Assembly: GCA_947372465.1 (NCBI GenBank)
Contig: CANBTT010000009.1
Location: forward strand, 1-64,000
DNA from: Burkholderiales bacterium
GTDB lineage: Bacteria > Pseudomonadota > Gammaproteobacteria > Burkholderiales > Burkholderiaceae_C
Length of the DNA stretch: 64,000 bases
Direction of reading: 5' to 3'
Part shown: in pieces, positions 22,513-50,445 of the stretch
Layout: each line of letters begins with the position of its first letter
Position numbering within the stretch: the first letter of the stretch is position 1
Position numbers and translations under genes: made by a program
The notes under the pieces: generated by a model
The model's input: only the letters and a program-made list of their open reading frames with translations
What the model was told of the DNA's origin: nothing
Database searches by the model: none

Positions 22513-22565
22513 AAAACAGTTATATCAGGATTTTATTGGGTGTTTTTAGGGGTTATTTTGTATTT

Positions 22566-22575
22566 TTGTATACAA
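22566..22575. promoter_or_regulatory. candidate GntR operator, promoter-proximal copy
   Basis: TTGTATACAA is a perfect 10-bp palindrome nine bases before the ATG of the VanA-like gene, where a bound repressor would block transcription or initiation. The GntR gene lies two genes on. This is inferred from symmetry and position. Confidence 0.5.
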
Positions 22576-22584
22576 TCTGTATTC

Positions 22585-23715: not shown

Positions 23716-23751
23716 TGCCCTTTGAAAACGTCTTGAGTCACAGAGTCACAC

Positions 23752-24537: not shown

Positions 24538-24681
24538 GCCTTTGCTCTTGTGAGCGCCTTCTAAGCGCGAGAGCTCCTGGCTCAGGTGCCGTTGTTTGAG
24601 GCCCTTTTTTTGAGAAATCATTGAATTCAACTCTTTGACGACCCCCCTTCCTTAAGACAATTTTTTTCCGAGATCAGCCGC

Positions 24682-25698: not shown

Positions 25699-25716
25699 AA
25701 AAATGAAGGAAGACAC

Positions 25717-26886: not shown

Positions 26887-26908
26887 AATAGCCTTTTTTT
26901 AATCCAAG

Positions 26909-26944
26909 GCCATGCGGACAAGAGACGTTTCTTGTTCGCATGGC
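26909..26944 (+). terminator. hairpin after the Liv binding-protein gene
   Basis: The arms 26909-26923 and 26930-26944 pair over 15 bp with one G-U pair and a 6-base loop, followed by TTTCACTTTT. Such structures after binding-protein genes reduce read-through and protect the upstream mRNA, giving more binding protein than permease. Confidence 0.65.
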
Positions 26945-27004
26945 TTTCACTTTTGCCTTGAGTGATGATCTGTTCACACTTGATACGGAGCGATCTGACA
27001 CATC

Positions 27005-29630: not shown

Positions 29631-30348
29631 GCTGCTTGAGGTCTCGGGTTTGACGGCTGGGTATTCGCAAGCCGTGATCATTTCTAAGATTGACTTTGTC
29701 ATCAAAGAGGGTGAAACCTTGGCGCTTTTGGGGCGCAATGGTGTGGGCAAAACAACGTTGATCAATTCACTGATTGGTGTGACCCAAAGACACGCGGGTC
29801 AGATCAAGCTCGGTGGCGTTAACATCGAACAGTGGTCCCCTTATGAGCGCGTTCGCAAGCTTGCTGAGGGTGGCATTGGTTGGGTCCCTCAAGAGAGAAA
29901 CATCTTTAAATCGCTGACGGTTCACGAAAACTTGACGGCTGTTGAGCGTCTTGTTCAGGGTCCCCACGCTTGGACCACTGAGCGCGTTTATCATTTGTTT
30001 CCAAGGCTTCTTGAGCGCCAAGGCAATTTGGGCAGTCAACTGTCTGGAGGTGAGCAGCAAATGCTGGCCGTTGCACGCGCACTCATGGTGAACCCTCGCG
30101 TGCTTTTACTTGATGAGCCCCTAGAAGGATTGGCGCCCATCATCGTTGAAGAGTTGCTTCACGCTTTGAAGAAGATCACTCGAAACGAAGGCGTTTCGGC
30201 GATCATCGTGGAGCAGCATCCGCAAATGATCCTCTCCATTTCAGATCAAGCCTTGGTCTTGGAGCGGGGTCAAGTGGTTTTGCAAGAAAGCGCTGAGGTG
30301 CTTTTAAGTCAACCCGCCTTGTTGGAGCGTTTGCTGGGCGTACAATAA
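29623..30348 (+). CDS. branched-chain amino acid-type ABC ATP-binding protein (LivF)
   Basis: The 241-residue ATPase begins MSELLEVSGLTAGYSQAVII. It has Walker A LLGRNGVGKTTLINSLIG, signature QLSGGEQQMLAVARALM and Walker B RVLLLDEPLEGLAP. The motif GGIGWVPQERNIFKSLTVHENL is characteristic of LivF. It overlaps livG by 8 bp and completes a five-gene transporter (binding protein, two permeases, two ATPases). Confidence 0.92.
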   Translation: MSELLEVSGLTAGYSQAVIISKIDFVIKEGETLALLGRNGVGKTTLINSLIGVTQRHAGQIKLGGVNIEQWSPYERVRKLAEGGIGWVPQERNIFKSLTVHENLTAVERLVQGPHAWTTERVYHLFPRLLERQGNLGSQLSGGEQQMLAVARALMVNPRVLLLDEPLEGLAPIIVEELLHALKKITRNEGVSAIIVEQHPQMILSISDQALVLERGQVVLQESAEVLLSQPALLERLLGVQ

Positions 30349-32437: not shown

Positions 32438-33349
32438 TTACTTCAGCGCGTCTGAGATCACTTTTTGGGTCAAGCCCAAAGCGACCCGCTGTGTCCCCGT
32501 GCTGGGTCGTTTGGAAGACCAAACCAGCATCAGTTGAGACAGGAGTTGAGGGCGCTGAATGGCGTGGGTTGTGAAGGCCTCTGGATCAGGGAAATCATTG
32601 AGCGTGTAGGTCGGTAACACAGCAAAGCCAAGGCCTTCTTTGACCAACTCTAAAATTGCGTTGATGCCATCAATTTCTAGAGCGATTTGGGGCCGGACAT
32701 TGAGTTTTTGCATTTCAATCTCAATCAAAAGTCGAAAAGCATTGGGCCGGCTGGGTAATATCAAGGGCAGTTCGCACAAATCTTTGAGAAAAACGCTCGG
32801 CTTGAGCAGTGCCTGTTGCTTTTTACCGATGCGTTTGCTGCCTGCAATCAAGATCAAGGCGTCTTCGTGCAATTGCATCATCTCTATGTCTTGAGAGGGT
32901 GCCGGGTTGTACAAAACAGCCATGTCGATGCGACCCGCTCTCAAGCTTTCATACATCAGCGCAGAAAACCCCTCGGTGAGCGAGAGTTTTGCTTGAGGGA
33001 GTGCGTTCTTGAAGGCCAAGGTCAAGGGCACGGTGATCAGTTTGGAGAGGCTTGGCGGCAAACCGATGGAGATGGGGCCCGCCAAGGCGCCGCTCGTGCC
33101 GCTCAACTCCTCTTTGGCCAAAGCGACTTGGTACAAGATGCCTCTGGCGTGCTCAAGCATCAACAAGCCTGACTCGGTTGGCGTCACGCCCCGGCCATTT
33201 CTGATCAAAAGGCTTTGATGCAATTCCACCTCCAGTTGCCTGACTTGGCGGCTCAACATCGGTTGTGCCACCCCAAGTGCAGAGGCCGCTTTTGTAAAGC
33301 TGCCCAGTTCGGCAACCCTCACAAACGATTCGATTTGTTTTAAATCCAT
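32438..33349 (-). CDS. LysR family transcriptional regulator, probable pmd regulator
   Basis: From the ATG at 33349 the product is 303 residues. The helix-turn-helix is MDLKQIESFVRVAELGSFTKAASALGVAQPMLSRQVRQLE, followed by a two-lobed inducer-binding domain (GPISIGLPPSLSKLITVPL, RIDMAVLYNP, LVKEGLGFAVLPTYTL). An upstream in-frame start would add 14 non-conserved residues and is not used. It is divergent from pmdE, and an inverted repeat with T-N11-A geometry lies in the gap, so it is likely the activator of the protocatechuate 4,5-cleavage operon, responding to protocatechuate or a ring-cleavage product. The inducer is inferred. Confidence 0.85.
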   Translation of the reverse strand: MDLKQIESFVRVAELGSFTKAASALGVAQPMLSRQVRQLEVELHQSLLIRNGRGVTPTESGLLMLEHARGILYQVALAKEELSGTSGALAGPISIGLPPSLSKLITVPLTLAFKNALPQAKLSLTEGFSALMYESLRAGRIDMAVLYNPAPSQDIEMMQLHEDALILIAGSKRIGKKQQALLKPSVFLKDLCELPLILPSRPNAFRLLIEIEMQKLNVRPQIALEIDGINAILELVKEGLGFAVLPTYTLNDFPDPEAFTTHAIQRPQLLSQLMLVWSSKRPSTGTQRVALGLTQKVISDALK

Positions 33350-33681
33350 GTGGAACAATGTGTCAGCACCCAGCGAGAGATCAAATCGCATGGGATGTTT
33401 GAGAAGGGCTTGTATCTAGTTGGGATTTGCATATTTTAACCCCTGTTATGCGTATTTGTTATAACAGATAGTGGGGAATGCATTGATTTAAGGCGGATTT
33501 TGAGATCGTTTTAAAGTCGTTTGTCTCTAAAATCATCACCAGTCATTCAAAGACAGGCAGGTGCTTGTTTTGAGCCTCAATTGGGTCTTGCCAAGGCCTA
33601 ATTTTTTGACCGCTTGAGCACTGAGAGTCAAAGAGGGCGAAATTTTTAAGACAAATCATTTTTTAAAGTGAAGGACAAACG
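33350..33681. promoter_or_regulatory. divergent control region between LysR gene and pmdE
   Basis: These 332 bp hold no gene. They contain the LysR-type box listed separately at 33443-33467. The rest, about 33490-33680, is AT-rich leader ending in a strong ribosome site (GAAGGA) before pmdE. No clear sigma-70 hexamer pair could be fixed. Confidence 0.5.
33443..33467. promoter_or_regulatory. LysR-type operator, CTGTTAT-N11-ATAACAG
   Basis: CTGTTAT (33443-33449) and ATAACAG (33461-33467) are exact inverted repeats 11 bp apart, the T-N11-A geometry of LysR-type sites. A nested 10-bp palindrome TGTTATAACA lies at 33457-33466. It sits about 95 bp from the LysR gene start and 215 bp from pmdE. Confidence 0.65.
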
Positions 33682-34728
33682 ATGAGTACCAGCAAGCCCC
33701 TGATCATTGATGTGCACGGTCACTACACCACTGCACCCAAAGCACTTGAAGAGTGGAGGAACAAGCAAATTGCTGGCATCAAGGACCCAGCCATGATGCC
33801 CAAAGTCTCTGAGCTCAAGATCAGCGACGACGAATTGCGTGAGACGATCGAGTCCAATCAGTTAAAACTCATGAAGCAGCGCGGCAGTGACATCACGATC
33901 TTCAGTCCACGCGCCAGTTTTATGGCTCACCACATCGGAGACTTTCAAGTCTCCTCGACTTGGGCCGCTATTTGTAACGAGTTGTGTCACCGAGTGGCGC
34001 AGTTGTTTCCCGATCACTTCATGGGTGCCGCCATGTTGCCTCAGTCACCAGGCGTTGACCCCAAGACGTGCATTGCGGAAATTGACAAGTGCGTGAAAGA
34101 TTACGGTTTTGTGGGCATCAACTTGAACCCTGATCCATCAGGTGGGCATTGGACTTCACCACCCTTGTCTGATAAACATTGGTACCCCATTTATGAAAAA
34201 ATGGTGGAGTACGACATTCCTGCAATGGTGCACGTCTCAACGAGTTGCAACGCTTGTTTCCACACCACGGGTGCGCATTATTTGAACGCGGACACCACTG
34301 CTTTTATGCAGTGTCTGACGTCTGATTTGTTCAAAGACTTTCCAACCCTTCGGTTCTTGATTCCTCATGGCGGCGGAGCCGTGCCCTACCATTGGGGGCG
34401 TTTCAGAGGCTTGGCGCAAGAGCTGAAGAAGCCTTTGCTCTCAGAGCATTTGATGAACAACATCTATTTCGACACCTGTGTGTACCATCAGCCTGGCATT
34501 GATCTTTTGACCAAGGTCATTCCAGTGAAAAATATTTTGTTTGCCAGTGAGATGATTGGTGCAGTTCGTGGCATCGATCCCGAAACAGGGCATTATTTTG
34601 ATGACACCAAGCGTTACATCGAATCGACCCCTCATTTGACTGAGCAAGAGCGTTACATGGTTTATGAGGGCAACGCCAGAAAAGTGTTCCCCAGAATGGA
34701 CGCTGCATTGAAGGCCAAAAATATCTAA
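33682..34728 (+). CDS. pmdE: 4-oxalomesaconate hydratase (LigJ/PmdE type)
   Basis: The 348-residue amidohydrolase-superfamily protein begins MSTSKPLIIDVHGHYTTAPKALEEWR, very like LigJ of Sphingobium. His12 and His14 are the first metal ligands; HVSTSCNACFHTTGAHYLNADT and IPHGGGAVPYHWGRF carry further histidines, and LFASEMIGAVRGIDPETG closes the site. It hydrates 4-oxalomesaconate to 4-carboxy-4-hydroxy-2-oxoadipate in protocatechuate meta-cleavage. It is the first gene of an operon ordered E-F-Bug-D-A-B-C, close to Comamonas pmdEFDABC. Confidence 0.88.
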   Translation: MSTSKPLIIDVHGHYTTAPKALEEWRNKQIAGIKDPAMMPKVSELKISDDELRETIESNQLKLMKQRGSDITIFSPRASFMAHHIGDFQVSSTWAAICNELCHRVAQLFPDHFMGAAMLPQSPGVDPKTCIAEIDKCVKDYGFVGINLNPDPSGGHWTSPPLSDKHWYPIYEKMVEYDIPAMVHVSTSCNACFHTTGAHYLNADTTAFMQCLTSDLFKDFPTLRFLIPHGGGAVPYHWGRFRGLAQELKKPLLSEHLMNNIYFDTCVYHQPGIDLLTKVIPVKNILFASEMIGAVRGIDPETGHYFDDTKRYIESTPHLTEQERYMVYEGNARKVFPRMDAALKAKNI

Positions 34729-34770
34729 TTCGCCCGTGAGCTGAGTTTTAACAATGAAAAGGATTTGATC

Positions 34771-35460
34771 ATGTCAATGAACACCTTGGGCTGCGTGAAA
34801 CGTGGCATCCCCAGAGCCGATGCCAACCAAGTCAAGCGTTTGGAGCATTTTGGCGTTGCGACTGTCCACGAGGCCATGGGTCGTGTGGGCTTGATGCAGC
34901 CTTATATGCGTCCGATTTACTCAGGCGCTAGAGTGGCCGGCACGGCTGTGACGGTTTTGGTTCATCCGGGTGACAACTGGATGCTTCACGTGGCCGCTGA
35001 GCAAATTCAGCCAGGCGACATTGTGGTCGTGGCGCTGAGTGCAGACAACTGTGATGGTTTTTTTGGCGACTTGCTCGCCACCTCGTTCAAAGCACGGGGC
35101 GCCAAGGGTTTGATCATTGATGCAGGTGTCAGAGACGTCAAAGAGTTGACTGAGATGGGTTTCCCCGTTTGGAGCAAAGGCATCAGCGCCAAGGGCACGA
35201 TCAAGGCCACGCTAGGGTCGGTGAATTTCCCAGTCGTTTGTGCCGGCGCCTTGGTCAATCCAGGCGACGTTGTGTTGGCCGATGACGACGGTGTCGTTGT
35301 GGTGCCAGCCCACATTGCGGCCCAAGCGGCAGATGCAGCCCAAGCGCGTGAAGACAATGAAGGCGCCAAGAGAGAAAAGTTGGCCGCCGGTGTCTTGGGC
35401 TTGGACATGTACAAGATGCGTGAACCGCTCGAAAAGGCAGGTTTAAAATACATCGATTGA
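34771..35460 (+). CDS. pmdF: 4-carboxy-4-hydroxy-2-oxoadipate aldolase (LigK/PmdF type)
   Basis: From the ATG at 34771, preceded by AAAAGGA, the protein is 229 residues of the RraA-like class II aldolase family. Arg121-Asp122 in [10 protein letters not shown] correspond to the catalytic Arg-Asp pair of the Pseudomonas HMG/CHA aldolase; [22 protein letters not shown] is the metal-side loop. It splits the product of pmdE into pyruvate and oxaloacetate, the last step before central metabolism. An in-frame TTG six bases earlier is a less likely start. Confidence 0.9.
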
Positions 35461-35521
35461 GCGCTTTGGCCTTTCAGGTCAAGGTCCCTTTTTTTGCACG
35501 AACCACACAAAGACAACCAAC

Positions 35522-36565
35522 ATGGCCAAGCATTTGAAGTCGCTTGATGCATTCGCAGTGAAGGAGGGATCGCGCCGAGCTTTGCGCATGGTCTTTTGTG
35601 GGCTGCTTGCACTGATGGGGCTCTCAAGTGCCACGGCGCAAACAGCCGCGTCGACGAATGCGCCGCTTTTCAATCCGAACAAGCCCATCAAAATGGTGGT
35701 GGGCTATTCTGCTGGCGGAGCCGTGGATTTGGTTGCTCGATCCCTGTCTAAGAGTCTGGCCACCCAAATGGGCGTGAGCTTTGTTGTTGAGAACAGGCCA
35801 GGCGCTGGGACCAACATCGCTGTGAAATCGGTGATTGCGGCTGAGCCCGATGGACACACATTGATGCTCGCGGCCAACGCCTTGGCGGCAAACATGTCTC
35901 TTTATCAGCCCGCGCCTTTTGATGCAGAGAAAGAATTGGCGACGGTTGCATTGGTTGGCAAAATACCCGTGGTGATTGCTGTGCAGTCGAGCTCCAGCTT
36001 TCGGGGCATGAGCGCTTTGATTGATAAAGCCAAATCCGATCCCCAAAGTTTGTCATATGCAAGCCCCGGCAATGGATCGACGCCACATTTGGCGATGGAG
36101 ATTTTTGCCAGAGCCGCTTCCATTGACTTGAGCCACATCCCTTACAAAGGGGGCGCCCAAGCCATCACGGATGTCTTGGGCGGACAAGTGCCCGTGTTGG
36201 CCATGAATGCGCTTGAGGTCTTGCCCCATGTGAGCAGCGGAAAACTCAAGGTCTTGGCGGTGCTGAGTGCCAAAAGAACGCCAATGTTTCCCGATGCCCT
36301 CACGCTTTCCGAGCAAGGCTTTCCTGGCTTTGAGGCGGCTGTATGGTATGGGGTGGTCGCACCATTTGGAACGCCCAAAAACATGCTTGTGCATTTGCAC
36401 CAGGAAGTGCAAAAGGCCCTTGCCAGTGCCGAGGTCAAAGAAAAGATGAGCTCTGTGGGAGGCGAGGTGACGCTTGCATCCAGGGAGCAATTTGCAGAGT
36501 TGCTGCATGCAGAGCGTGTGCGGTATGAAAAACTCATCCGCCAAGCTCAAATAAAACCAGATTGA
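35522..36565 (+). CDS. Bug/TctC family solute-binding protein (2 of 4)
   Basis: The 347-residue product has the family opening FNPNKPIKMVVGYSAGGAVDLVARSLSKSLATQ, then VVENRPGAGTNIAVKSVIAAEPDGHT and SYASPGNGSTPHLAMEIF. The first 22 residues precede the hydrophobic signal (MVFCGLLALMGLSSATAQ), so the real start may be the ATG at 35588. It lies inside the pmd operon, where Comamonas has the MFS transporter gene pmdK upstream, so it may bind protocatechuate or a related acid. No membrane partner is encoded beside it. Confidence 0.88.
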   Translation: MAKHLKSLDAFAVKEGSRRALRMVFCGLLALMGLSSATAQTAASTNAPLFNPNKPIKMVVGYSAGGAVDLVARSLSKSLATQMGVSFVVENRPGAGTNIAVKSVIAAEPDGHTLMLAANALAANMSLYQPAPFDAEKELATVALVGKIPVVIAVQSSSSFRGMSALIDKAKSDPQSLSYASPGNGSTPHLAMEIFARAASIDLSHIPYKGGAQAITDVLGGQVPVLAMNALEVLPHVSSGKLKVLAVLSAKRTPMFPDALTLSEQGFPGFEAAVWYGVVAPFGTPKNMLVHLHQEVQKALASAEVKEKMSSVGGEVTLASREQFAELLHAERVRYEKLIRQAQIKPD

Positions 36566-36612
36566 AATCAAACACACCAACTGCTCAATGGTCTTGAAAA
36601 AAGGAACTTAAG

Positions 36613-37531
36613 ATGACAGACTTTACGAAAACACCCGGATGGCTTGATTGGTACCAAGGTCCCTCAAAGCCAAAATTCAAATTGCCTGCAGGTGCGATTG
36701 ATTCGCATTGCCATGTGTTTGGCCCGTCCACTATTTTTCCTTATTCACCAGAGAGAAAGTACACGCCCTGTGATGCCAGTAAAGAGCAGTTGTTCGCTTT
36801 AAGAGACCATTTGGGCTTTGCTCGAAACATCATTGTTCAGGCGACTTGCCATGGTGCGGACAACCGTGCGCTTGTGGATGCACTGACTCACTCGGATGGC
36901 AAAGCCAGAGGGGTCGCCACCGTCAAGAGAGATGTGAGCGATGAAGAGATTCAACGACTGCACGATGCGGGTGTGCGCGGTGTGAGATTTAATTTTGTCA
37001 AGCGGTTGGTGGACTTCACCCCCAAAGATGAGCTGATGGAAATTGCAGGCCGCATTGCAAAATGGGGTTGGCATGTGGTCATTTATTTTGAGGCAGTTGA
37101 TTTGCCCGAGTTGTGGGACTTCTTCACGGCTTTACCAACGACGGTGGTGGTCGATCACATGGGTCGACCCGATGTCACCAAGCCTGTTGATGGACCTGAG
37201 TTTGAGTTGTTCATTAAATTCATGCGTGAGCACAAAAACGTCTGGAGCAAGGTCACTTGTCCAGAACGTTTGACCGTGTCGGGTCCTGCGGCACTGAATG
37301 GTGAAACCCATGCCTACCACGATGTCATCCCGTTTGCCAAAAAGTTGGTGGATACATTCCCGGACCGAGTGATTTGGGGGACAGATTGGCCCCACCCCAA
37401 TTTGAAAGACCACATGCCTGATGATGGCTTGCTGGTGGATTTCATTCCTTTGATTGCAACAACGCCTGCGCTTCAACAGAGTTTGTTGGTGGACAACCCA
37501 AGCAGGCTGTATTGGTCAGAGGAGAGCAGCA

Positions 37532-37542
<11 letters not shown>
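36613..37542 (+). CDS. pmdD: 2-pyrone-4,6-dicarboxylate hydrolase (LigI/PmdD type)
   Basis: The 309-residue amidohydrolase begins near AGAIDSHCHVFGPSTIFPYSPERKYTPCDASKEQL, the LigI signature with the His-X-His pair. GVRGVRFNFVKRLVD, VVDHMGRPDV and VIWGTDWPHPNLKDHMPDDGLL supply the remaining active-site residues (Asp in GTDWPHP). It opens the pyrone ring to 4-oxalomesaconate. It is preceded by AAGGA and overlaps pmdA by 11 bp. Confidence 0.92.
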
Positions 37543-38831
<1,289 letters not shown>

Positions 38832-38870
38832 GCCGTTCATTTTTCAACATTTGTTATAGAGGAAAATTTC

Positions 38871-39824
38871 ATGAAAACGATTAAAGTCGCCCTTGCCGGT
38901 GCAGGTGCATTTGGCAACAAGCACCTAGATGGCATTAAAAAAATTGATGGCGTTGAGGTCATCTCCTTGGTTGGACGCACCCTTGATAAAACCCAGGAAA
39001 TTGCCAAGCAATACGGTATTCCTCACGTCACCACCAATTTGGCTGACAGTTTGGCCATTGCGGACGTTGATGCCGTCATTTTGTGTACCCCCACTCAAAT
39101 GCATGCTCAGCAAACGATTCAATGTTTACAAGCTGGCAAGCACGTTGAGGTTGAAATCCCCATGGCCGATCGACTCGATGATGCAAAAGCAATTGTGGCG
39201 CTTCAAAAGTCAACGGGACTCATCGCGATGGCGGGACACACGCGTCGCTACAACCCCAGTCACCAGTGGATCAACAAAAAAATCAAAGCAGGGGAATTCA
39301 ATATCCAGCAAATGGATGTTCAGACTTATTTCTTCCGCAGAACCAACATGAATGCCTTGGGTCAAGCCAGAAGTTGGACGGATCACTTGTTGTGGCACCA
39401 TGCTGCTCACACCGTTGATTTGTTTGCTTACCAATGTGGCAGTCCCATCGTGAAAGCCAATGCCATTCAAGGCCCGATCCACTCGGCTTTGGGTATTTCA
39501 ATGGACATGAGTGTTCAGCTCAAAGCGGCCAATGGTGCCATTTGTACCTTGTCTTTGTCCTTTAACAACGATGGTCCTTTGGGCACATGGTTCCGATACA
39601 TTGGCGACACGGGAACTTATTTGGCCAAGTACGATGATTTGTACAACGGCAAAGAAGAGCAAATTGATGTCTCCAAGGTCGATGTCAGCATGAACGGCAT
39701 TGAAATTCAAGACCGTGAATTCTTCGCTGCCATCAGAGAGGGGCGTCAGCCTAACTCTAGCGTTGAAAACGTTCTGGCTTGCTACCAAGTGCTGCACGAT
39801 TTAGAGCAACAAATGCACAACTGA
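38871..39824 (+). CDS. pmdC: 4-carboxy-2-hydroxymuconate-6-semialdehyde dehydrogenase (LigC/PmdC)
   Basis: The 317-residue Gfo/Idh/MocA-fold dehydrogenase starts MKTIKVALAGAGAFGNKHLDGI with the dinucleotide-binding glycines. It has AGKHVEVEIPMADRLDDAKAIV (the conserved EKP-like region here reads EIP) and RSWTDHLLWHHAAHTVDLFAYQ as in LigC. It oxidises the hemiacetal form of the dioxygenase product to 2-pyrone-4,6-dicarboxylate with NAD(P). A GAGG ribosome site precedes it, 39 bp after pmdB. Confidence 0.9.
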   Translation: MKTIKVALAGAGAFGNKHLDGIKKIDGVEVISLVGRTLDKTQEIAKQYGIPHVTTNLADSLAIADVDAVILCTPTQMHAQQTIQCLQAGKHVEVEIPMADRLDDAKAIVALQKSTGLIAMAGHTRRYNPSHQWINKKIKAGEFNIQQMDVQTYFFRRTNMNALGQARSWTDHLLWHHAAHTVDLFAYQCGSPIVKANAIQGPIHSALGISMDMSVQLKAANGAICTLSLSFNNDGPLGTWFRYIGDTGTYLAKYDDLYNGKEEQIDVSKVDVSMNGIEIQDREFFAAIREGRQPNSSVENVLACYQVLHDLEQQMHN

Positions 39825-41621: not shown

Positions 41622-42611
41622 ATGACTTACGCACTCTTTCAATCCGTTTTAATTTTTTTTCTTGTTTTGTCAGGATTGGGTATCGGCAGTGCATGGAGTG
41701 CGGATGCATACCCGAATAAGCCGATCTCCTTGATCGTGCCTACGGCACCTGGAGGTCCAGTGGACATGACGGCAAGAATTGTTGCCAATGACTTGTCCAA
41801 AATTTTGGATCAACGGGTGGTGATCATCAATAAGCCTGGGGCCTCACAAAAAATTGGTATTGAGGCACTGCTGCGTTCTCCAAAAGACGGCTACACCTTT
41901 GCTGCGTGTTCGGCCGCATCCATGACCATCAGCCCTGCCATTGAGAAAAACATGGGATACGATCCACTCAAGGATTTTGTCATGCTGGCCAATGGGATTG
42001 AGAACAACCGTGTTTTGGTCATCCATCCTTCCACGCCAGCAAAAAACCTCCTTGAATTGATTGCTTATGCCAAGGCCAATCCGGGCAAGTTGACTTTTGG
42101 AAGTGGAGGCAATGGCACGACCCTGCATTTCTCGACGGCATCGTTTTTGAATGTTTTGGGTCTGAATGTTTTGCACGTGCCTTATAAATCCAGTGGTCCA
42201 GCACTCATGGGGGTTTTGTCTGGAGAGGTCAACATGCTCATGCCAGATGTTGGCGACGTTTTGAATCACCTCAACAACGGCGCCTTGATTGCCTTGGGCA
42301 TCACTGGGGCCAGTAGAAATGATCGATTGCCAAGCTTGCCAACCATGAAGGAAAGTGGTGTTGCAGAGCTCAAAAATTGGACTTACTCCTCTTGGATTGG
42401 GTTTGTCGCTGCAGAGGGCATACCGCAAGAGGCCTCTATCAAGCTACAAAATGCTCTGCAAACCGCATTGCGAAGCCCTAAAACCAAGGAGGCTTTTGAG
42501 GCTGTTGGCTTTGCTGTGTTGGCCTCCACCAGTGAGCAATTTCATGCTCGAGTGAGAGATGAGTATGAGCTGAATTTAAAACTGCTCTCTAGCGGCCGTG
42601 TTTTAAAGTGA
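41622..42611 (+). CDS. Bug/TctC family solute-binding protein (3 of 4)
   Basis: The 329-residue protein has a signal peptide (SVLIFFLVLSGLGIGSAWSA) and AYPNKPISLIVPTAPGGPVDMTARIVANDLSK, then INKPGASQKIGIEALLRSPKDGYT and TFGSGGNGTTLHFSTASFLNVLG. It is the first gene of a cluster with a UbiD decarboxylase and a molybdenum hydroxylase, 57 bp ahead of the former, and probably captures the substrate of that pathway. No TctAB partner is present. Confidence 0.88.
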   Translation: MTYALFQSVLIFFLVLSGLGIGSAWSADAYPNKPISLIVPTAPGGPVDMTARIVANDLSKILDQRVVIINKPGASQKIGIEALLRSPKDGYTFAACSAASMTISPAIEKNMGYDPLKDFVMLANGIENNRVLVIHPSTPAKNLLELIAYAKANPGKLTFGSGGNGTTLHFSTASFLNVLGLNVLHVPYKSSGPALMGVLSGEVNMLMPDVGDVLNHLNNGALIALGITGASRNDRLPSLPTMKESGVAELKNWTYSSWIGFVAAEGIPQEASIKLQNALQTALRSPKTKEAFEAVGFAVLASTSEQFHARVRDEYELNLKLLSSGRVLK

Positions 42612-42668
42612 GTCGAGCTTTTGTTGAGATTTTTTGTTGTTGACTCGCAATGGGTCTGAAAGTGTTCC

Positions 42669-44303
42669 ATGTCTGAGAATTTAAAAGTAAAGCCCTCAAG
42701 CAATTTCCAAGCGCATCTTGCGGATTTGGATAAAAGAGGTTTGCTGGTGACCATCGATCAGCCGATCAATAAAGACACGGAGATGCAGCCCTTGGTTCGT
42801 TGGCAGTTTGTAGGTGGATTGCCAGAGGAGCAGAGGAAAGCTTTTTTATTCACCAATGTCGTGGATTCCAAGGGCAAGCGTTATGACATGCCTGTCTCTA
42901 TTGGCGCATTTGCCTCATCGGCTGATATCTATGCGATTGGTATGGGGCAAGAGGTCAATGACATCGGTAAGGCCTGGATGCAGGCGATCAAAAATCCGAT
43001 TGCGCCGGTTTATATCAACGACGCACCCTGCCAAGAAGTGGTCATTCAAGGCGAGGCGCTTAAAAAGCCTGGGGGAGGATTGGCCATGTTACCCGTGCCC
43101 ATTTCAACGCCAGGTTTTGATGCTGCTCCTTATTTGACTGCAACTTTGTGCATCTCCAAAGATCCCGACAGCGGTATTCAAAACATGGGCACTTATCGAG
43201 CGGGTCTCAAAGCCACGGACCGTTTGGTCGTTCGCATGGTTGCGCGTGTGGGCGGTGCTGGGGGGTGGGTGCATTGGCTCAAATACAGAGAGCGAAAGGA
43301 GATGATGCCGATGGCCATTGTGATCGGCTCCTCTCCCATTGTGTTCTTTACGGGGCCACAGAAATTGGCTGTGGATTTGGATGAAATCGCAGTGGCTGGC
43401 GCTTTGGCTGGCGAGCCCATTCGAATGGTGAAGTGCGTGAGTGTTGATCTACAAGTGCCCGCTGACAGTGAAATTGTGATTGAGGGTTTGATTGATCCAT
43501 CAACCTTGGAGCCAGAGGCGCCCTTTGGCGAGAGCAACGGGTATGTGGCACTTGAAGCCTTCAATATGCCCATGCAAGTCACGGCCATCACGCATCGCAA
43601 AAAAGCGGTCTTTACGGCCATCATCAGTCAAGTCACCCCCAGCGAGTCAAGCGTTGTCAAACGAGTTGCCTATGAGCCGATCTTTTTATCTCATCTGAGA
43701 GACGAGATGTCCATCAAGTGCATCAAACGTGTCGTGATGCATGAGCCTTTGTCGAATTTGCGACCGGTCATTTTTTTGCAGTTTGAAAAGGGTGCACCCA
43801 AAACGGAAGTATGGCGTGGTTTGCATGGCGCATCCACGCTCAGACCAGAGTGTGGGAAAATTGTGGTTGCTGTGAGTGAAGACATCGATCCTCAAAGCAC
43901 CGATGCTGTGTTTTGGTCCATGGCCTACAGAATGACGCCGATGACCGATGTGCAGTTGGTGCCCTATCGTCGAGGCGTTCAAGGCTCTCAATATGGCCCC
44001 AAAAAAGAGGAGTCAACGCTATTGATCGATGCGACTCAAAAACATGACCTGGCCCCCTTGGCCTTGCCCGCGAAGCCTTATATGCAGCGAGCAAAGGATC
44101 TTTGGGACGAGCTTGGACTGCCGCCCTTGGTGATGAAACAGCCTTGGCACGGTTATACCCTTGGCGACTGGAACGATACGTGGGAGAAGTTTGCCCAGCG
44201 AGCCGTTGCTGGGGATTGGGAGGCCAATGGTTTGGAGACCATTTTGCGTCGTCGTGAAGATTTAAGTCCAGAGACGCCCACATCAACTGTAGAAAAATTT
44301 TAA
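42669..44303 (+). CDS. UbiD family (de)carboxylase
   Basis: The 544-residue protein belongs to the prenylated-FMN-dependent UbiD family. Its motif EAPFGESNGYVALEAF places Glu283 and Glu288 in the conserved acidic loop. FTNVVDSKGKRYDMPVSIGAFASSADIYAIGMG lies near the N-terminus, and YRAGLKATDRLVVRMVARVGGAGGWVHWLKYRER and IIGSSPIVFF-like segments cover the cofactor site. Members act on aromatic and heteroaromatic acids, for example HmfF on furandicarboxylate. No UbiX-type prenyltransferase gene is next to it, so the cofactor must come from elsewhere in the genome. The substrate is unknown; the following hydroxylase genes suggest decarboxylation of a heteroaromatic or aromatic acid. Confidence 0.87.
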   Translation: MSENLKVKPSSNFQAHLADLDKRGLLVTIDQPINKDTEMQPLVRWQFVGGLPEEQRKAFLFTNVVDSKGKRYDMPVSIGAFASSADIYAIGMGQEVNDIGKAWMQAIKNPIAPVYINDAPCQEVVIQGEALKKPGGGLAMLPVPISTPGFDAAPYLTATLCISKDPDSGIQNMGTYRAGLKATDRLVVRMVARVGGAGGWVHWLKYRERKEMMPMAIVIGSSPIVFFTGPQKLAVDLDEIAVAGALAGEPIRMVKCVSVDLQVPADSEIVIEGLIDPSTLEPEAPFGESNGYVALEAFNMPMQVTAITHRKKAVFTAIISQVTPSESSVVKRVAYEPIFLSHLRDEMSIKCIKRVVMHEPLSNLRPVIFLQFEKGAPKTEVWRGLHGASTLRPECGKIVVAVSEDIDPQSTDAVFWSMAYRMTPMTDVQLVPYRRGVQGSQYGPKKEESTLLIDATQKHDLAPLALPAKPYMQRAKDLWDELGLPPLVMKQPWHGYTLGDWNDTWEKFAQRAVAGDWEANGLETILRRREDLSPETPTSTVEKF

Positions 44304-44314
44304 TTTAAAAAGCC

Positions 44315-45190
44315 ATGAAACCCGCACCCTTTACCTACCATGACCCCCACTCTCGCAGTGAGGTGTTGGATTTGCTTTCAACACTGGAAAACACGAAGTT
44401 ATTGGCTGGGGGGCAGTCCCTTATGCCGATGATGAATTTTCGATTTCTCATGCCGGACCACTTGATTGATCTCAAGGGCGTCAAGGATTTGGACTTCATT
44501 CGTTTGACGGGCAATCGCTTGAGCATGGGTGCCATGACGCGTCAAAGGAGCATCGAATTTTCTAAAGAAATTGCGGCCCAATGTCCTGTGCTCACGCGAG
44601 CATTGACTTTTGTTGGGCACAGACAAACAAGGAACCGAGGTACCCTTGGAGGATCCCTGTGTCATTTCGATCCAAGTGCTGAGTTGGTCAACATTGCCGC
44701 CTTGCTGAATGCGAAACTCAAACTTGAATCTAAGTCGGCATCGCGAGAAATTGCCATGGATGATTTTGGACAAGGGTACCTGACCACGCAAATCCAAGAG
44801 GGTGAGATCTTGTCCGAAATCACCCTGGAGGTACCTTCTTCAAAGCACGGTTATGCGTTCGATGAGTTTGCGAGAAGGCATGGAGACTACGCCATCGTTG
44901 CATGCTCGGCTTTGATACTATTGGCTTCTAATGGGACCATTTCTGAGGCTTCTTTCTCTATCTCAGGCATGACACACAGGCCTTTGCGGCTCAGAGACTT
45001 GGAAGCTTCTTTGATCGGGCAGGTGCCCAGTGAGTCGACTTTGAAGGCCTGTGCGGCCAAAGTGTCTGAGTTGGATGCCATGGAGGACTCTTACGTCAAT
45101 GCCACATACAGAAAGCACTTGGCCAAAATCATGTCTTATCGAGTTTTAAAAGCAGCTTGTTTGAGCGCTCAGGAGAAAATCAATGGCTGA
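44315..45190 (+). CDS. molybdenum hydroxylase FAD subunit (CoxM-like)
   Basis: The 291-residue subunit has the FAD-binding motifs LLAGGQSLMPMMNFRFLMPDHLIDL and RQTRNRGTLGGSLCHFDPSAELVNIAALL, then the C-terminal CO_deh_flav_C-like part (EASFSISGMTHRPLRLRDLEASL). It receives electrons through the iron-sulfur subunit. It lies 11 bp after the UbiD gene and overlaps the next gene by 8 bp, so the three hydroxylase subunits are cotranscribed with the decarboxylase. Confidence 0.9.
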   Translation: MKPAPFTYHDPHSRSEVLDLLSTLENTKLLAGGQSLMPMMNFRFLMPDHLIDLKGVKDLDFIRLTGNRLSMGAMTRQRSIEFSKEIAAQCPVLTRALTFVGHRQTRNRGTLGGSLCHFDPSAELVNIAALLNAKLKLESKSASREIAMDDFGQGYLTTQIQEGEILSEITLEVPSSKHGYAFDEFARRHGDYAIVACSALILLASNGTISEASFSISGMTHRPLRLRDLEASLIGQVPSESTLKACAAKVSELDAMEDSYVNATYRKHLAKIMSYRVLKAACLSAQEKING

Positions 45191-45668
45191 TACAAGAACA
45201 ATCACGGTTCACGTCAATGGTGTGCCGTATTCAAAGTCCATTGAAACGCGCACGACTTTGGTGGATTTTATAAGGCACGAGTGTGGTCTCACAGGCACCC
45301 ATGTGGGCTGTGAACACGGCGCATGTGGCGCATGCACGGTTTTGGTCGATGGTCACAGTGCAAGATCATGTCTGATGCTTGGAGTTCAATGCCATGACGC
45401 TCAAGTCCAAACGGTTGAGGGCTTGGCAAACAATGGTGTCTTGAATGTTCTTCAACAATCCTTTCAAGACCATCATGCCTTGCAGTGTGGTTTTTGTACG
45501 GCAGGCATTTTGATGACCATGACGGAGTTCTTAAGAGACAACGCCCATCCTTCAGAAGATGAGGTGCGCGATATTTTGTCGGGCAACGTCTGCCGGTGCA
45601 CGGGTTATCTGCCCATCGTTGAAGCCGTCCTTCATGCTGCCAAAATTTTACGTGAGATGAAACAATGA
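45183..45668 (+). CDS. molybdenum hydroxylase 2Fe-2S subunit (CoxS-like)
   Basis: The 161-residue subunit has two [2Fe-2S] sites. The first is plant-ferredoxin-like (THVGCEHGACGACTVLVDG plus a later Cys in RSCLML). The second is the helical one (LQCGFCTAGILMTMTEFL and GNVCRCTGYLPIVEAVL). The arrangement is standard for xanthine-dehydrogenase-family small subunits. Its stop overlaps the start of the large-subunit gene (ATGA). Confidence 0.93.
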   Translation: MADTRTITVHVNGVPYSKSIETRTTLVDFIRHECGLTGTHVGCEHGACGACTVLVDGHSARSCLMLGVQCHDAQVQTVEGLANNGVLNVLQQSFQDHHALQCGFCTAGILMTMTEFLRDNAHPSEDEVRDILSGNVCRCTGYLPIVEAVLHAAKILREMKQ

Positions 45669-48007
45669 AGACACCTTGGTTTGGCCAATCCTTTAAAAGG
45701 AAAGAGGATCCCGCTTTTTTAAAAGGCGAGGGTCGCTATGTTGACGATATTCAGATGCCTGGCATGCTCCACGCGGCTTTTGCCAGAAGTTCGCATGCGC
45801 ACGCCAAGATTTTGTCCATCGACAAGTCTGCAGCCTTGGCGGTTCCTGGCGTGCATGCTGTTTTGATCTACGCCGATTTGCCCGATATTGTTAAAGCGCA
45901 GACGCTGCCCCTGTTGGTGCCTCACCCTTCGATCACCGTGACCAAGTTGCCCTATACCTTGGTCAAGGATGAGGCCTGCTACGTGGGCGAGCCCATTGCA
46001 TGTGTGATTGCTGATAATCGCTACATTGCAGAGGATGCTGCGCAATTGATCGACATTGAGTATGAGCCTTTGCCCGTTGCCAGTGATTGTTTGAATGCTT
46101 TGCAAGAGCACGCACCCAAAGCGCATTTGGACATGACAAGCAACGTGGCTGCGTACTTTGAAGTCAAGTCGGGGGATACAGAGAAAGCCTTTGCCCATCC
46201 AAAGCACGTCTTTAAGGAAAAGCTTTTTCAACACCGCGGTGGTCCTTTCTTCATGGAGTGTCGCGGAGCGGTGGCTCAATATGAAAAATCCGGGGACAAC
46301 TACACCTTGCATGTGTCTTCACAGGGCTCGCACCGCATCAAGCGTTGTATGCTCGAGCTCTTTGATATCAGCGACAGCCAGTTGCGAGTGATTGCGCCTG
46401 ATGTGGGGGGTGGCTTTGGTCCCAAGGGCTCTTTTTACCCAGAGTATGCCAACGTCTCGATTGCTTCCAAGATGCTGGGGCGACCCGTGAAATGGATTGA
46501 AGACCGGCGAGAGAATTTTTTAACCACGCACCAAGAACGCGATCAATATTGGGATGTCGAGATTGCTGTGGATGAAGATGCAAAAATCCTTGGCGTTCGG
46601 GGGCGTTTGGTTCATGACAATGGGGCCTATGTTCCTTGGGGCATCGTGGTGCCTTGGATCAGTGCCACGACTGTGCCTGGACCCTACGTGATCCCTGCAT
46701 TCAAGTTGGACGTGTACTCCATGTACACGAACAAAATACAAGTGACCTCTGTGCGGGGCGCTGGGCGTCCTCAAGCGGTTTTGGCCATGGAGCGCTTGAT
46801 GGACCGTGTGGCCAATGAGCTGCATTTGGATCCTGCTGAGGTCAGAAGGAGAAATTTCATTCAGCCCGAGCAAATGCCCTACAACGTGGGAATCATTTTT
46901 AGGGACGGCAGGCCTGTGACCTACGACAGTGGAGATTATCCGGCGTGTCAACAAGCCGCTTTGGACCAGGCCGACTACAAAGGATTTGGTCAACGCCAAA
47001 AGGAGGCTTTGAGCAAGGGACGCTATTTGGGCATTGGCATAGCCAATGGTGTGGAGGCCACTGGACTTGGCCCCTATGAAGGGGCGACGGTCAAAATCTC
47101 CACCACTGGAAAAATCACGATCTACACCAGTGCCGTGCCACAGGGGCAGTCTCATAAAACAACGCTTGCGCAAATCGCAGCAGATCAACTGCATGCAAGT
47201 CCAGCAGATATCACCGTGGTGACAGGTGACACGGCCAACTTGGGCTTGGGGGTTGGTACTTTTGCTGCGCGCACGGCGGTCAATGCAGGTTCATCTGTGC
47301 ACATGGCCGCCATTGAAGTGGCCAAGAAGATCAAAGCGTATGCTGGCGTGATGTTGTCTAAAAACCCCGATGAGCTGGAAATTGACAACGATGTGGTGTT
47401 TGTCAAGGACAACCCCAGCATCAGCTGCAAACTCAAAGACATTGCCGTCAAATCTGTTGGGATGCCTGGGTTTGCGATGCCCAATGGCATGCAGCCAGGC
47501 CTTGAACACACAGCGTATTTCATGCCTGATCGCTCGACTTACTCCAATGCAACGATCGTGGCGGAGGTGGAGGTGGATGTAGGCACTGGGATGGTGAACA
47601 TTCTGCGCCTTTGCATTGCACACGACTGCGGCAAAGTCATCAATCCCATGGTGGTCAATGGGCAAATCATTGGGGGGGCTGCACACGGCATTGGAAATGC
47701 TCTGCTTGAGGAGATGGTGTTTGATGAAAACGCGCAACCTGTGTCCACCAATTTTGGTGAGTACTTGATGCCTTTGTCCACGAACATGCCAGTGATCGAT
47801 TTGGTTCACCTTGAAACGCCGTCTCCCTTGAACCCCTTGGGTGTCAAGGGCGCGGGCGAGAGTGGTACCATCCCGGCCATTGCTGCGATCATTGGTGCGG
47901 TTGAAAATGCCCTCAAGCCTTTTGATGTCAAAATTTCACAAGCGCCCATCAGTCCGCAAAAGATCATTGAGTTGCTTGGCCCCCATTTGGCCAGCATCAC
48001 CGAGTGA
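45665..48007 (+). CDS. molybdenum hydroxylase large subunit (CoxL-like, form II)
   Basis: The 780-residue subunit binds the molybdenum-pterin cofactor. Motifs include GRYVDDIQMPGMLHAAFARSSHAHA, QLRVIAPDVGGGFGPKG and GKVINPMVVNGQIIGGAAHGIGNALLEE, and the catalytic Glu732 in GVKGAGESGT. The active-site loop reads SVRGAGR (residues 362-368) instead of the AYRCSFR of true CO dehydrogenase, so it lacks the copper-binding cysteine and should hydroxylate an organic ring or acyl-CoA, as 2-furoyl-CoA dehydrogenase or nicotinate-type enzymes do. The substrate cannot be read from sequence. Confidence 0.9.
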   Translation: MKTPWFGQSFKRKEDPAFLKGEGRYVDDIQMPGMLHAAFARSSHAHAKILSIDKSAALAVPGVHAVLIYADLPDIVKAQTLPLLVPHPSITVTKLPYTLVKDEACYVGEPIACVIADNRYIAEDAAQLIDIEYEPLPVASDCLNALQEHAPKAHLDMTSNVAAYFEVKSGDTEKAFAHPKHVFKEKLFQHRGGPFFMECRGAVAQYEKSGDNYTLHVSSQGSHRIKRCMLELFDISDSQLRVIAPDVGGGFGPKGSFYPEYANVSIASKMLGRPVKWIEDRRENFLTTHQERDQYWDVEIAVDEDAKILGVRGRLVHDNGAYVPWGIVVPWISATTVPGPYVIPAFKLDVYSMYTNKIQVTSVRGAGRPQAVLAMERLMDRVANELHLDPAEVRRRNFIQPEQMPYNVGIIFRDGRPVTYDSGDYPACQQAALDQADYKGFGQRQKEALSKGRYLGIGIANGVEATGLGPYEGATVKISTTGKITIYTSAVPQGQSHKTTLAQIAADQLHASPADITVVTGDTANLGLGVGTFAARTAVNAGSSVHMAAIEVAKKIKAYAGVMLSKNPDELEIDNDVVFVKDNPSISCKLKDIAVKSVGMPGFAMPNGMQPGLEHTAYFMPDRSTYSNATIVAEVEVDVGTGMVNILRLCIAHDCGKVINPMVVNGQIIGGAAHGIGNALLEEMVFDENAQPVSTNFGEYLMPLSTNMPVIDLVHLETPSPLNPLGVKGAGESGTIPAIAAIIGAVENALKPFDVKISQAPISPQKIIELLGPHLASITE

Positions 48008-48068
48008 CAACCCAGGCATCTGAGTCGCTTAAACCCATTGCAAATGAAAACATACAGTTAGGAACGAA

Positions 48069-48788
48069 ATGTCTGAATTCGAATTCAAGGTCACCCAAAA
48101 AGGCTCCGTAGCGCACATTGATTTAAGCCGTCCAAGCGAGGGCAATGCTTTGACGCGCGGCATGATGTTTCAATTGGCCAAAGTACTCAGGGATTGCGGC
48201 GCCAATCCTGGCGTGAACTTGGTGGTGATTGAGGCCACTGGGGATTTCTTTTGCAAGGGACGGGACGGCAAGGGTGAGTCCCGTGCTGGCATGACGCCCT
48301 ATGAAATCAGGGTCAACATGATGGGCGCGGTGCTGGATGTTTATAAAGCCATCACCGACGTTCCTGTTCCTGTGCTTGCCAAGGTGCATGCCGATGCAGT
48401 GGGCTTTGGCAGCGCCATGGCCGTGGCGTGTGATTTGACGCTCGCCTCTTCGCAAGTGAAGTTCTCTTTCCCTGAGATTGAACACGATATTCCACCCACC
48501 ATGGCGATGTGTGCTGCGCTTGGGAAGATTCCTGCCAAGGCACTGTCTTATTTGATTTATTCAGCCGAGGCGGTGGATGCCCAGGAGGCCAAACAGCTGG
48601 GCATTGCCAGCAAAGTGTACCCTCAAGCCTCTTATGACGCAGAGGTCAGTGCCTTCATTGAAAAGCTGTCCTCTAAGCCTCGATTGGTGCTCGAGACGAT
48701 CAAAAAATACCAAGAAAAAGCCACACATGCCTCACCCGACATGGCACTGGAGTACGCCGGTACATTGTTGGCTTTGGTGAGGTCTTGA
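48069..48788 (+). CDS. enoyl-CoA hydratase/isomerase family protein
   Basis: The 239-residue crotonase-fold protein has the oxyanion-hole segments GDFFCKGRDGKGES and PVLAKVHADAVGFGSAMAVACDLTLASSQVKFSFPEIEHDIPP. It is shorter than typical hydratases (about 257). Family members hydrate, isomerise or hydrolyse acyl-CoAs; the hydrolase HmfE in furoate breakdown belongs here. Position after the molybdenum hydroxylase implies a CoA-bound intermediate, although no CoA ligase is encoded in this cluster. AGGA lies before the ATG. Confidence 0.85.
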   Translation: MSEFEFKVTQKGSVAHIDLSRPSEGNALTRGMMFQLAKVLRDCGANPGVNLVVIEATGDFFCKGRDGKGESRAGMTPYEIRVNMMGAVLDVYKAITDVPVPVLAKVHADAVGFGSAMAVACDLTLASSQVKFSFPEIEHDIPPTMAMCAALGKIPAKALSYLIYSAEAVDAQEAKQLGIASKVYPQASYDAEVSAFIEKLSSKPRLVLETIKKYQEKATHASPDMALEYAGTLLALVRS

Positions 48789-48818
48789 GCCGAGCGCTTG
48801 GAAGTCTATAAAGAACAT

Positions 48819-49430
48819 ATGCAATTAAAAAATCAATTCACTGTGCCCCTTGCTCCTCGCGATGCTTGGATTTTTTTGATGAACATCCAGGAGGTGGCAC
48901 CCTGCTTTCCCGGCGTGGAATTGACGCAGTACATTGACGAAAACAATCAAAAGGGTCGCATCAAGGTCAAGCTCGGTCCTGTCTCTATGGTCTTTGCTGG
49001 GACGGTGCAATTCAAGATGAAGGATGAACACAACTTGCGCGCAGAGGTATCTGCCAATTGGCGAGAGGAAAAGGGCAGGGGCAGCGCTCAAAGTGACATC
49101 AATTTCCAGCTTCTCGCCTGTGATCAAGGCACACAAGTCAGCATTGACAGCGATGTTCAGTTGGCAGGACAAGTGGCCCAATATGGGCGTGGTGTGGGCA
49201 TGATTGCGGAAATTTCTGAGCAGTTGATTTCTCAGTTTGCAAAAAACTTAGAACAAAAGGCGAGAGATTTCAAGGTGAGCGCGTCCTCGGGTGCGAGCGA
49301 TGTTGCGCTCTCCAGCGGGGCGCCTGCAGCAAGCGCTCCGCAAGCCGCGCAGTCCAATGAGATATCGGCCTTGTCCTTGCTTTGGCGTGTTTTGCTTGCC
49401 AAGCTCAGAGTCCTCTTCAAGAGGTCTTGA
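48819..49430 (+). CDS. CoxG-like SRPBCC family protein
   Basis: From the ATG at 48819 the protein has 203 residues. Residues 1-145 match the CoxG/SRPBCC fold (MQLKNQFTVPLAPRDAWIFLMNIQEVAPCFPGVELT, then GRIKVKLGPVSMVFAGTVQF and QLAGQVAQYGRGVGMIAEISEQLISQFAKNLE). After an Ala/Ser-rich linker there is a C-terminal amphipathic or membrane-attaching helix (ALSLLWRVLLAKLRVLFKRS). In CO dehydrogenase systems CoxG attaches the enzyme to the membrane, and a similar role for this hydroxylase is likely. The in-frame TTG at 48798 is an unlikely start. Confidence 0.85.
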   Translation: MQLKNQFTVPLAPRDAWIFLMNIQEVAPCFPGVELTQYIDENNQKGRIKVKLGPVSMVFAGTVQFKMKDEHNLRAEVSANWREEKGRGSAQSDINFQLLACDQGTQVSIDSDVQLAGQVAQYGRGVGMIAEISEQLISQFAKNLEQKARDFKVSASSGASDVALSSGAPAASAPQAAQSNEISALSLLWRVLLAKLRVLFKRS

Positions 49431-49443
49431 GCGCTGCTTCATC

Positions 49444-49468
49444 AGAGGGCCCTGTGAATGGACCCTCT
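49444..49468. terminator. hairpin between convergent coxG-like and Bug genes
   Basis: Nine-base arms at 49444-49452 and 49460-49468 pair with one mismatch around a 7-base loop. There is no T tract. The 46-bp gap between convergent genes makes a shared termination role plausible. Confidence 0.4.
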
Positions 49469-49476
49469 AGCGAGGG

Positions 49477-50445
49477 CTATTCGTTGAAGTTCAGGTTTCT
49501 GTCTTTCATGATCTTTTTGAACATGTAAATATCAGATTTCATTTGTTCAGACAACTCCTCCGGTGTGCCCAGTCCAGGCATGTTGCCCATGGATGAGATC
49601 ACAGTTCGAACTTTTTCTTCTTTCAAAGCCTCGGACAATGCTTTGCTTAAAACTTGGATCACTTGATCGGGGGTGCCAGCGGGTGCCATGATGCCGTTCC
49701 AGCCGTTGTAAGTGAAGCCGGGAACACTTGTTTTGGCAAGCGGCGGTAAATTGGGCATGGGTGCCCAAGTGTCTTTGTTGGTGGTTGCCAGGCCCACCAC
49801 GAGCTTGCTGTCCATGAAGGGCTTGGCGCCTGCCATGAACATCAGTTGCACGCGACCCGCCGCAATTTCTGTGGCAGCCAAGGCCTCACCTCGAAAGGGG
49901 ATGTGTTGCATGTCAATGTCGGTCGCAACGGCAAACATCTCGCCCACCAAGTGTTGACTTGACCCAATACCGATGCTGCCAAAAGACAATTTTCCAGGAT
50001 TGGCCTTGGCGTATCTGATCAACTCCTCCACGCTTTTGAGGCCAAGTGTTGGCGCAATCACCAGGGTTTGGGTGGCATTGCAAATTTTACCGATGGGTTT
50101 AAAGCCCGTGATCACATCAAAGCTGTTGTGTGGACGAGTGGCCAAACTGGCTGTGTTTGCAGCACTGGGCACGACCAAGGTATAGCCATCGGCTGGGGCG
50201 CTGGCGACTTTGCTCAGTCCAATGCTGCCCGTTGCACCGGTCACGTTTTCAATGGTGATGGATTGACCCAAAATGGTTTGCATGGCCTGCGCAACGGCTC
50301 GCATGCAGGTGTCACTGGGTCCTCCAGACGCGGTGGGAACAATGACTTTGATGGGCTTGGTGGGGAAGGTCTGGGCCTGAAGAAAGCAGTGCGTCAAAAG
50401 AGCGCAAGTCATCAGAATTTTTTTATAAGTGCTTTGATCAGCCAC
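49477..50445 (-). CDS. Bug/TctC family solute-binding protein (4 of 4)
   Basis: The 322-residue protein starts at a GTG (50445) preceded by AGGAGA. An internal ATG at 50412 would also leave a signal peptide (MTCALLTHCFLQAQ). It has FPTKPIKVIVPTASGGPSDTCMRAVAQAMQTILGQ, ENVTGATGSIGLSKVASAPADGYT and FGSIGIGSSQHLVGEMFAVA. It faces the hydroxylase cluster from the other end, so two Bug genes flank it, perhaps for two related substrates. Confidence 0.87.
   Translation of the reverse strand: MADQSTYKKILMTCALLTHCFLQAQTFPTKPIKVIVPTASGGPSDTCMRAVAQAMQTILGQSITIENVTGATGSIGLSKVASAPADGYTLVVPSAANTASLATRPHNSFDVITGFKPIGKICNATQTLVIAPTLGLKSVEELIRYAKANPGKLSFGSIGIGSSQHLVGEMFAVATDIDMQHIPFRGEALAATEIAAGRVQLMFMAGAKPFMDSKLVVGLATTNKDTWAPMPNLPPLAKTSVPGFTYNGWNGIMAPAGTPDQVIQVLSKALSEALKEEKVRTVISSMGNMPGLGTPEELSEQMKSDIYMFKKIMKDRNLNFNE

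Follow-up and report, generated by a model that had tools for sequence, protein, structure and literature searches.

The described gene clusters closest to the locus reported here are the hmf clusters for hydroxymethylfurfural, furandicarboxylate or furoate, two of which we located through the solved HmfF enzyme, in Cupriavidus necator pENH92 and Geobacillus kaustophilus pHTA426 (both called hmf here by gene content, a name that their own records do not give). Both encode HmfF, the molybdenum (Mo), flavin adenine dinucleotide (FAD) and iron–sulfur (FeS) subunits of a hydroxylase, an AMP-binding ligase, a crotonase and a UbiX-type protein, and the hmf gene-function table of PMC12064950 also includes a putative ring hydrolase. 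The window analyzed here, i.e., a 64,000-nucleotide stretch of contig CANBTT010000009.1 from a Burkholderiales bacterium, carries a cluster that likewise combines a UbiD decarboxylase, a three-part Mo hydroxylase and a crotonase-fold protein, but that is devoid of the HmfD ligase and of UbiX and has the subunit order FAD–FeS–Mo. It shares a Bug gene with the C. necator cluster and a CoxG gene with that of G. kaustophilus (C. necator HmfA itself has a CoxG-like stretch), and its proteins are 29–33% (UbiD), 33% (Mo), 32–38% (FAD), 54–61% (FeS) and 24–29% (crotonase) identical to those of the two hmf clusters. The best reading is that the chemistry is hmf-like, while the cluster is not a member of the hmf pathway. 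With about even confidence, we take the genes listed below, probably a single operon that a further Bug gene faces, to be a catabolic cluster for the uptake and degradation of a (hetero)aromatic mono- or dicarboxylic acid.

41622..42611, + strand: Bug (TctC) periplasmic binding protein A (Pfam PF03401, E 9.9e-60)
42669..44303, + strand: UbiD-family prenylated flavin mononucleotide (prFMN) decarboxylase, 544 amino acids (aa), of a Mo hydroxylase-linked lineage (PF01977, E 8.9e-50)
44315..45190, + strand: Mo hydroxylase FAD subunit (PF00941, FAD_binding_5, E 6.1e-42; PF03450, CO_deh_flav_C)
45183..45668, + strand: Mo hydroxylase 2x[2Fe-2S] subunit (PF01799, Fer2_2, E 3.4e-29; PF00111, Fer2)
45665..48007, + strand: Mo hydroxylase Mo (large) subunit (PF02738/PF20256, MoCoBD_1/2; active-site columns; tree)
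48069..48788, + strand: short crotonase-fold protein, 239 aa (PF00378, ECH_1, E 7.4e-34)
48798..49430 (TTG start), + strand: CoxG-like protein (PF06240, COXG, E 2.1e-15)
49477..50445, - strand: second Bug protein (TctC), oriented toward the cluster (PF03401, E 1.9e-47)

Open reading frames and Pfam matches bear out the eight identities and the opposing second Bug gene named in an earlier sequence-only reading of this DNA (hereafter the original prediction), and the main domain of each protein exceeded its own Pfam cut-off. The tight core spacing that it noted was also recovered, with 57 bp between the Bug and UbiD genes, 11 bp between UbiD and FAD, and overlaps of 8 bp (FAD–FeS) and 4 bp (FeS–Mo), followed by gaps of 61 bp (Mo–crotonase), 9 bp (crotonase–CoxG, counted from the TTG) and 46 bp (CoxG to the facing Bug gene). 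The start codon of CoxG is, however, likely the ATG at 48819, seven codons past the TTG. Since cluster and window have the same GC content (51.1%), base composition gives no sign of recent insertion. An Rfam scan of the window revealed no family at gathering score. TctA and TctB, which accompany the binding protein in tripartite tricarboxylate transporters, were both absent from the Pfam matches of the cluster; the genome has one TctA.

The window UbiD has the UbiD domain together with the R, E and E residues of the family, and UbiX is encoded in the genome. These three residues were conserved in all 50 UbiD rows of the wider clade (superclade) to which the window protein belongs. PMC8988006 describes an E-R-E triad in UbiD enzymes, to which we assign them. 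The best solved relative was HmfF (6h6x, E 6e-41). Long branches in the UbiD tree part the two HmfF rows from the 50 superclade rows. Serine stands in place of the HmfF histidine (296 in 6h6x numbering) in all 34 superclade rows of one alignment and in all 50 of another. The HmfF residue matching PA0254 N318 (H297 in that paper) is described in PMC7976604 as key to furan specificity. Outside the superclade, UbiD3 on contig C1 of the own genome and the second UbiD of locus L079 have a tyrosine at this position. The own genome holds four UbiD genes, and the three that were scanned score far under the cut-off of the ubiquinone-enzyme model NF008175.

The hydroxylase comprises the FAD, 2x[2Fe-2S] and Mo subunits typical of its family, and its Mo subunit keeps the active-site glutamine and glutamate (equivalents of Gln240 and Glu763). 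Among its best solved relatives were quinoline 2-oxidoreductase and 6-hydroxypseudooxynicotine dehydrogenase, with the CO dehydrogenase 8uem scoring equally. Aerobic CO dehydrogenase form I was rejected as an identity, as the AYRCSFR loop with Cys388 is absent and SVRGAGR is found instead. In a tree built without nicotinate and benzoyl-CoA-type enzymes, the window protein fell in its own clade of 18 rows (support 100/100), whereas HmfA grouped with the Mo subunits of another module of the own genome (on C1) and relatives (8 rows, support 100/99); QorL, KdhL and CoxL (1n5w) formed long single branches outside both clades, their own placement being unsure. Tight clustering of the large subunit with a characterized enzyme, named in the original prediction as grounds for refuting it, was thus not seen with these four. 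Its proposal of an hmf-like logic distinct from hmf holds, the substrate probably being another (hetero)aromatic acid.

In a genus-centred search, the window UbiD was found at 81–100% identity in 5 of 101 genomes (G000, G038, G018, G029 and G034); several near-complete genus members (e.g., G003 and G011) gave no match at E ≤ 0.001. Matches at E ≤ 1e-150 occurred in 26 of 399 Burkholderiales genomes, four of them, besides the own genome, at 71–76%. The order to which L062 (from Propylenella binzhouense L72) belongs was covered by 397 genomes, five of which matched at E ≤ 1e-220, the genome of L062 itself included. A contig scan returned 27 UbiD loci, i.e., 22 alphaproteobacterial ones (by record name; 64–72%), four from Burkholderiales (81–98%) and one from Halalkalibacter (53%). 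The module is an accessory trait of sparse occurrence, common to two classes.

Neighboring genes, called with a simple codon model, followed the order Bug–UbiD–FAD–FeS–Mo–crotonase–CoxG in L054 and L055, and the position of Bug A 5′ of UbiD was the same in L054, L055 and L078. The order in L147 and L149 was CoxG–Bug–crotonase–Bug–Mo–FeS–FAD–UbiD, with a relative (57–58%) of the window's facing Bug inside the module, while L148 had UbiD–FAD–FeS–Mo without a crotonase. In many alphaproteobacterial loci, UbiD was preceded by FAD–FeS–Mo together with a crotonase, an alpha/beta hydrolase or both, often with a CoxG or Bug-like gene. This hydrolase was nearest to the 3-oxoadipate enol-lactonase (PcaD) models, under their cut-offs, in the two proteins scanned (one from L071, one from the own genome). 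Extra genes in L068, L071 and L074 encode a protein with an oligonucleotide-binding (OB) fold, a thiolase and a coenzyme A (CoA)-transferase of family III (CaiB-type), as assigned from L071 and extended by similarity to the other two. In the UbiD tree as in the Mo tree, the window, L054/L055, L147, L148 and L149 form a group, within which the placement of L148 differs.

A tblastn count revealed a Mo subunit within 9 kb of UbiD in 41 of 54 superclade loci vs. 0 of 20 other UbiD loci, and a nearby Bug gene in 47 of 54 vs. 1 of 20. Superclade loci with a flank shorter than 5 kb were left out, so that 54 of 92 rows were kept and 38 were dropped (14 of these 38 have a Mo subunit; in L146 the Mo piece at the contig edge was too short to count). 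Some counted loci stem from the same or near-identical genomes, and the two superclade UbiD genes on C1 were left out. The 20 control genes, probably mostly housekeeping, were 25–31% identical to the queries, and three of their loci (L204, L205 and L209) fall short of 5 kb in one flank. Among the 17 loci of the window type (window included; both flanks 5 kb or longer; membership hand-set after the UbiD tree), 14 had a Mo subunit, 10 a crotonase, 9 a CoxG and 16 a Bug gene, at identities of at least 45% for Mo and crotonase and at least 30% for CoxG. The remaining 37 superclade loci include 27 with a Mo subunit, belonging to several lineages of the Mo tree. Because the same gene set recurs in genomes of two classes, the cluster is more than a chance assembly.

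With regard to the crotonase, residues are given in rat enoyl-CoA hydratase numbering. In the window protein, alanine replaces the Glu144 equivalent while the Glu164 equivalent is kept, a departure from enoyl-CoA hydratase, which has both catalytic glutamates. HmfE retains the glutamate of its FELSLACD motif where the window crotonase has alanine, and the latter has a shorter C-terminal end in the alignment.

The cluster itself contains no CoA ligase and no UbiX, as had been stated before; UbiX lies elsewhere in the genome, and no close HmfD-like ligase was found. A single UbiX (G000:C1:44406-44912, over the NF004685 cut-off) sits beside a paralogous UbiD in a UbiD–Mo module, and the only other PF02441 match in the genome is a 418-aa frame on C8, taken as a putative CoaBC. 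For comparison, among six module-bearing alphaproteobacterial genomes, five have a PF02441 frame of 204–327 aa plus a longer one, and G106 has only the longer one. A query of the genome with the furoyl-CoA synthetase HmfD of C. necator revealed no orthologue, the best of 13 matches being 32% identical. The genome does encode 12 family III CoA-transferases, which could supply CoA activation; in some relatives a CaiB-type CoA-transferase may take the place of the ligase in this step.

Judging from family chemistry, the following sequence of events can be proposed, although its order is conjectural, as is the supply in trans of CoA activation and of ring opening. The Bug proteins would capture the acid, and UbiD would remove a carboxyl group (the chemistry of its homologs, with substrate and direction presumed) using prFMN produced by UbiX, whose single gene lies on another contig. 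The FAD–FeS–Mo enzyme would hydroxylate the ring at a carbon atom, taking the oxygen from water, with CoxG presumably assisting its maturation or membrane attachment. The hydroxylated ring might then tautomerize to a lactone-like compound or a cyclic ketone, to be opened by a PcaD-like hydrolase. The gene for such a hydrolase lies in-cluster in several Alphaproteobacteria, and the own genome has a 27% relative in the C1 paralogous module; it may be the functional counterpart of the putative hmf ring hydrolase. Finally, the crotonase-fold enzyme would process the opened product, perhaps as a CoA thioester formed by a CaiB-type transferase encoded elsewhere.

Several observations weigh against this proposal. 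The cluster lacks a ring-opening hydrolase and any CoA-activating gene, and UbiD and the Mo enzyme could act on separate compounds. No Mo subunit lies within 9 kb in three of the 17 window-type loci (L066, L069 and L076; L076 has FAD and FeS genes farther away), a crotonase at 45% was not found in seven of the 17, and the close relative L078 has the same set minus a CoxG match. Finally, promoter-like sites (3 vs. 7.1 in shuffles) and terminator-like sites (12 vs. 11.9) were not above shuffled sequence, so that co-transcription is argued from spacing and conservation only.

An alternative that we consider unlikely is a pathway for a pyridine- or quinoline-type carboxylic acid, in which the Mo enzyme hydroxylates beside the ring nitrogen and UbiD takes off the carboxylate. 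The presence of quinoline 2-oxidoreductase and 6-hydroxypseudooxynicotine dehydrogenase among the top solved Mo relatives speaks for it, but the window subunit was joined to neither QorL nor KdhL in the tree, and 8uem matches their scores. Another own-genome UbiD–Mo module, with a gene resembling 2,6-dihydroxypseudooxynicotine hydrolase (E 1e-44), and a distant 2,5-dihydroxypyridine dioxygenase relative (E 3e-6) in 4 of the 17 window-type loci, also fit a pyridine substrate; the window cluster, however, is without a pyridine ring-opening or amidase gene. This NicX-like gene (tested on L062) stands beside the module in L060, L062, L063 and L155. It keeps two of three positions that we take to be NicX metal ligands and has glutamate where His265, presumably one of them, aligns. 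Given the E-value and this changed ligand, we do not regard the gene, which occurs in some Alphaproteobacteria, as proving a pyridine substrate.

An improbable second alternative is a benzenoid acid pathway feeding the protocatechuate 4,5-cleavage genes upstream of the cluster (33682-39824), a set that the original prediction missed. The protocatechuate 4,5-dioxygenase and 4-carboxy-4-hydroxy-2-oxoadipate aldolase genes do keep their order in L054 and L055, but this linkage is confined to close relatives, LigB and LigC being unmatched in the stretches read of the alphaproteobacterial loci and of L147, L148 and L149. Between the two sets lie also an aldo/keto reductase gene and a gap of 767 bp, and reaching protocatechuate should need neither a crotonase nor a PcaD-like hydrolase. 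In the protocatechuate region, the LigK-type aldolase, LigA (37454-37975) and LigB subunits exceed NCBIfam cut-offs, accompanied by two amidohydrolases, a Gfo/Idh/MocA oxidoreductase, which we take to be LigC-like, and a LysR regulator (32438-33391). Farther upstream, 22492-30348 encodes a Rieske oxygenase that carries a VanA C-terminal domain, together with a reductase, a regulator of the GntR type and an ABC transporter of the branched-chain type; the oxygenase and reductase had no NCBIfam match at E ≤ 1e-30.

A rearranged but true hmf pathway is very improbable. HmfF is the best solved UbiD relative, and hmf clusters share the Mo enzyme and crotonase, have a UbiX-type gene and include Bug (Cupriavidus) or CoxG (Geobacillus). 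Nevertheless, hmf membership was rejected given identities of 24–33% for UbiD, Mo and crotonase, the furan-specificity histidine being serine throughout the superclade, the Glu-to-Ala change relative to HmfE, the lack of an HmfD homolog above 32%, and HmfA joining a different own-genome module. Chance placement of unrelated neighbors, for which the many Bug genes in the stretches read of the own genome and its wealth of Mo hydroxylases (16 match rows, ~13 frames) might plead, is hardly credible given gene sets conserved in two classes and our own estimate that, with ~13 Mo loci spread over 3.05 Mb, ~9% of random genes would have one within 9 kb, vs. the 41 of 54 observed.

The original prediction was thus partly supported, and an uptake and degradation operon for a (hetero)aromatic acid, distinct from hmf, stays our preferred reading. 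What had also been missed is that the cluster belongs to a family of UbiD–Mo modules, two more of which are present in the same genome (L039-L041, contig C1). One of these has the 2,6-dihydroxypseudooxynicotine hydrolase-like gene and the other has UbiX and a Mo subunit grouping with HmfA. L046 is a mosaic with a C1-type UbiD, a near-window-type Mo subunit, and thiolase, OB-fold and short-chain dehydrogenase/reductase genes. The repeated pairing of this UbiD lineage with different Mo hydroxylase lineages tentatively suggests, at somewhat less than even confidence, a general strategy of decarboxylating aromatic acids and hydroxylating them with water, of which the window module would be a new pathway. 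Searches of open-access literature (titles and abstract beginnings; for some queries top matches only) revealed no description of such a gene set, and a search for UbiD together with CoxG returned nothing. The locus marks a UbiD lineage in which we found no characterized member, gives it a testable partner enzyme, points to a new route for aromatic acids and corrects a tempting furoate-pathway annotation. Since UbiD enzymes are of interest for CO2 fixation onto aromatic rings, the addition of another class of substrates would be of value.

Beyond hmf, from which the window cluster differs in the replaced specificity histidine and crotonase glutamate and in its Mo clade, three systems invite comparison. 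Quinoline 2-oxidoreductase and 6-hydroxypseudooxynicotine dehydrogenase have a related Mo subunit with the catalytic glutamate kept, but the window clade is not sister to them; to our knowledge, neither has a UbiD or crotonase partner. Aerobic CO dehydrogenase (CoxMSL, CoxG) shares the CoxG gene and the subunit gene order FAD–FeS–Mo, and differs by the Cys388 loop, for which the window has SVRGAGR. Finally, the C1 paralogous module contains the same kinds of parts in the order UbiX–UbiD–LysR–FAD–FeS–Mo–hydrolase–crotonase–CoxG–Bug, with its UbiD 54%, Mo subunit 31% and crotonase 31% identical to those of the window, and with a Mo subunit that, unlike the window's, groups with HmfA.

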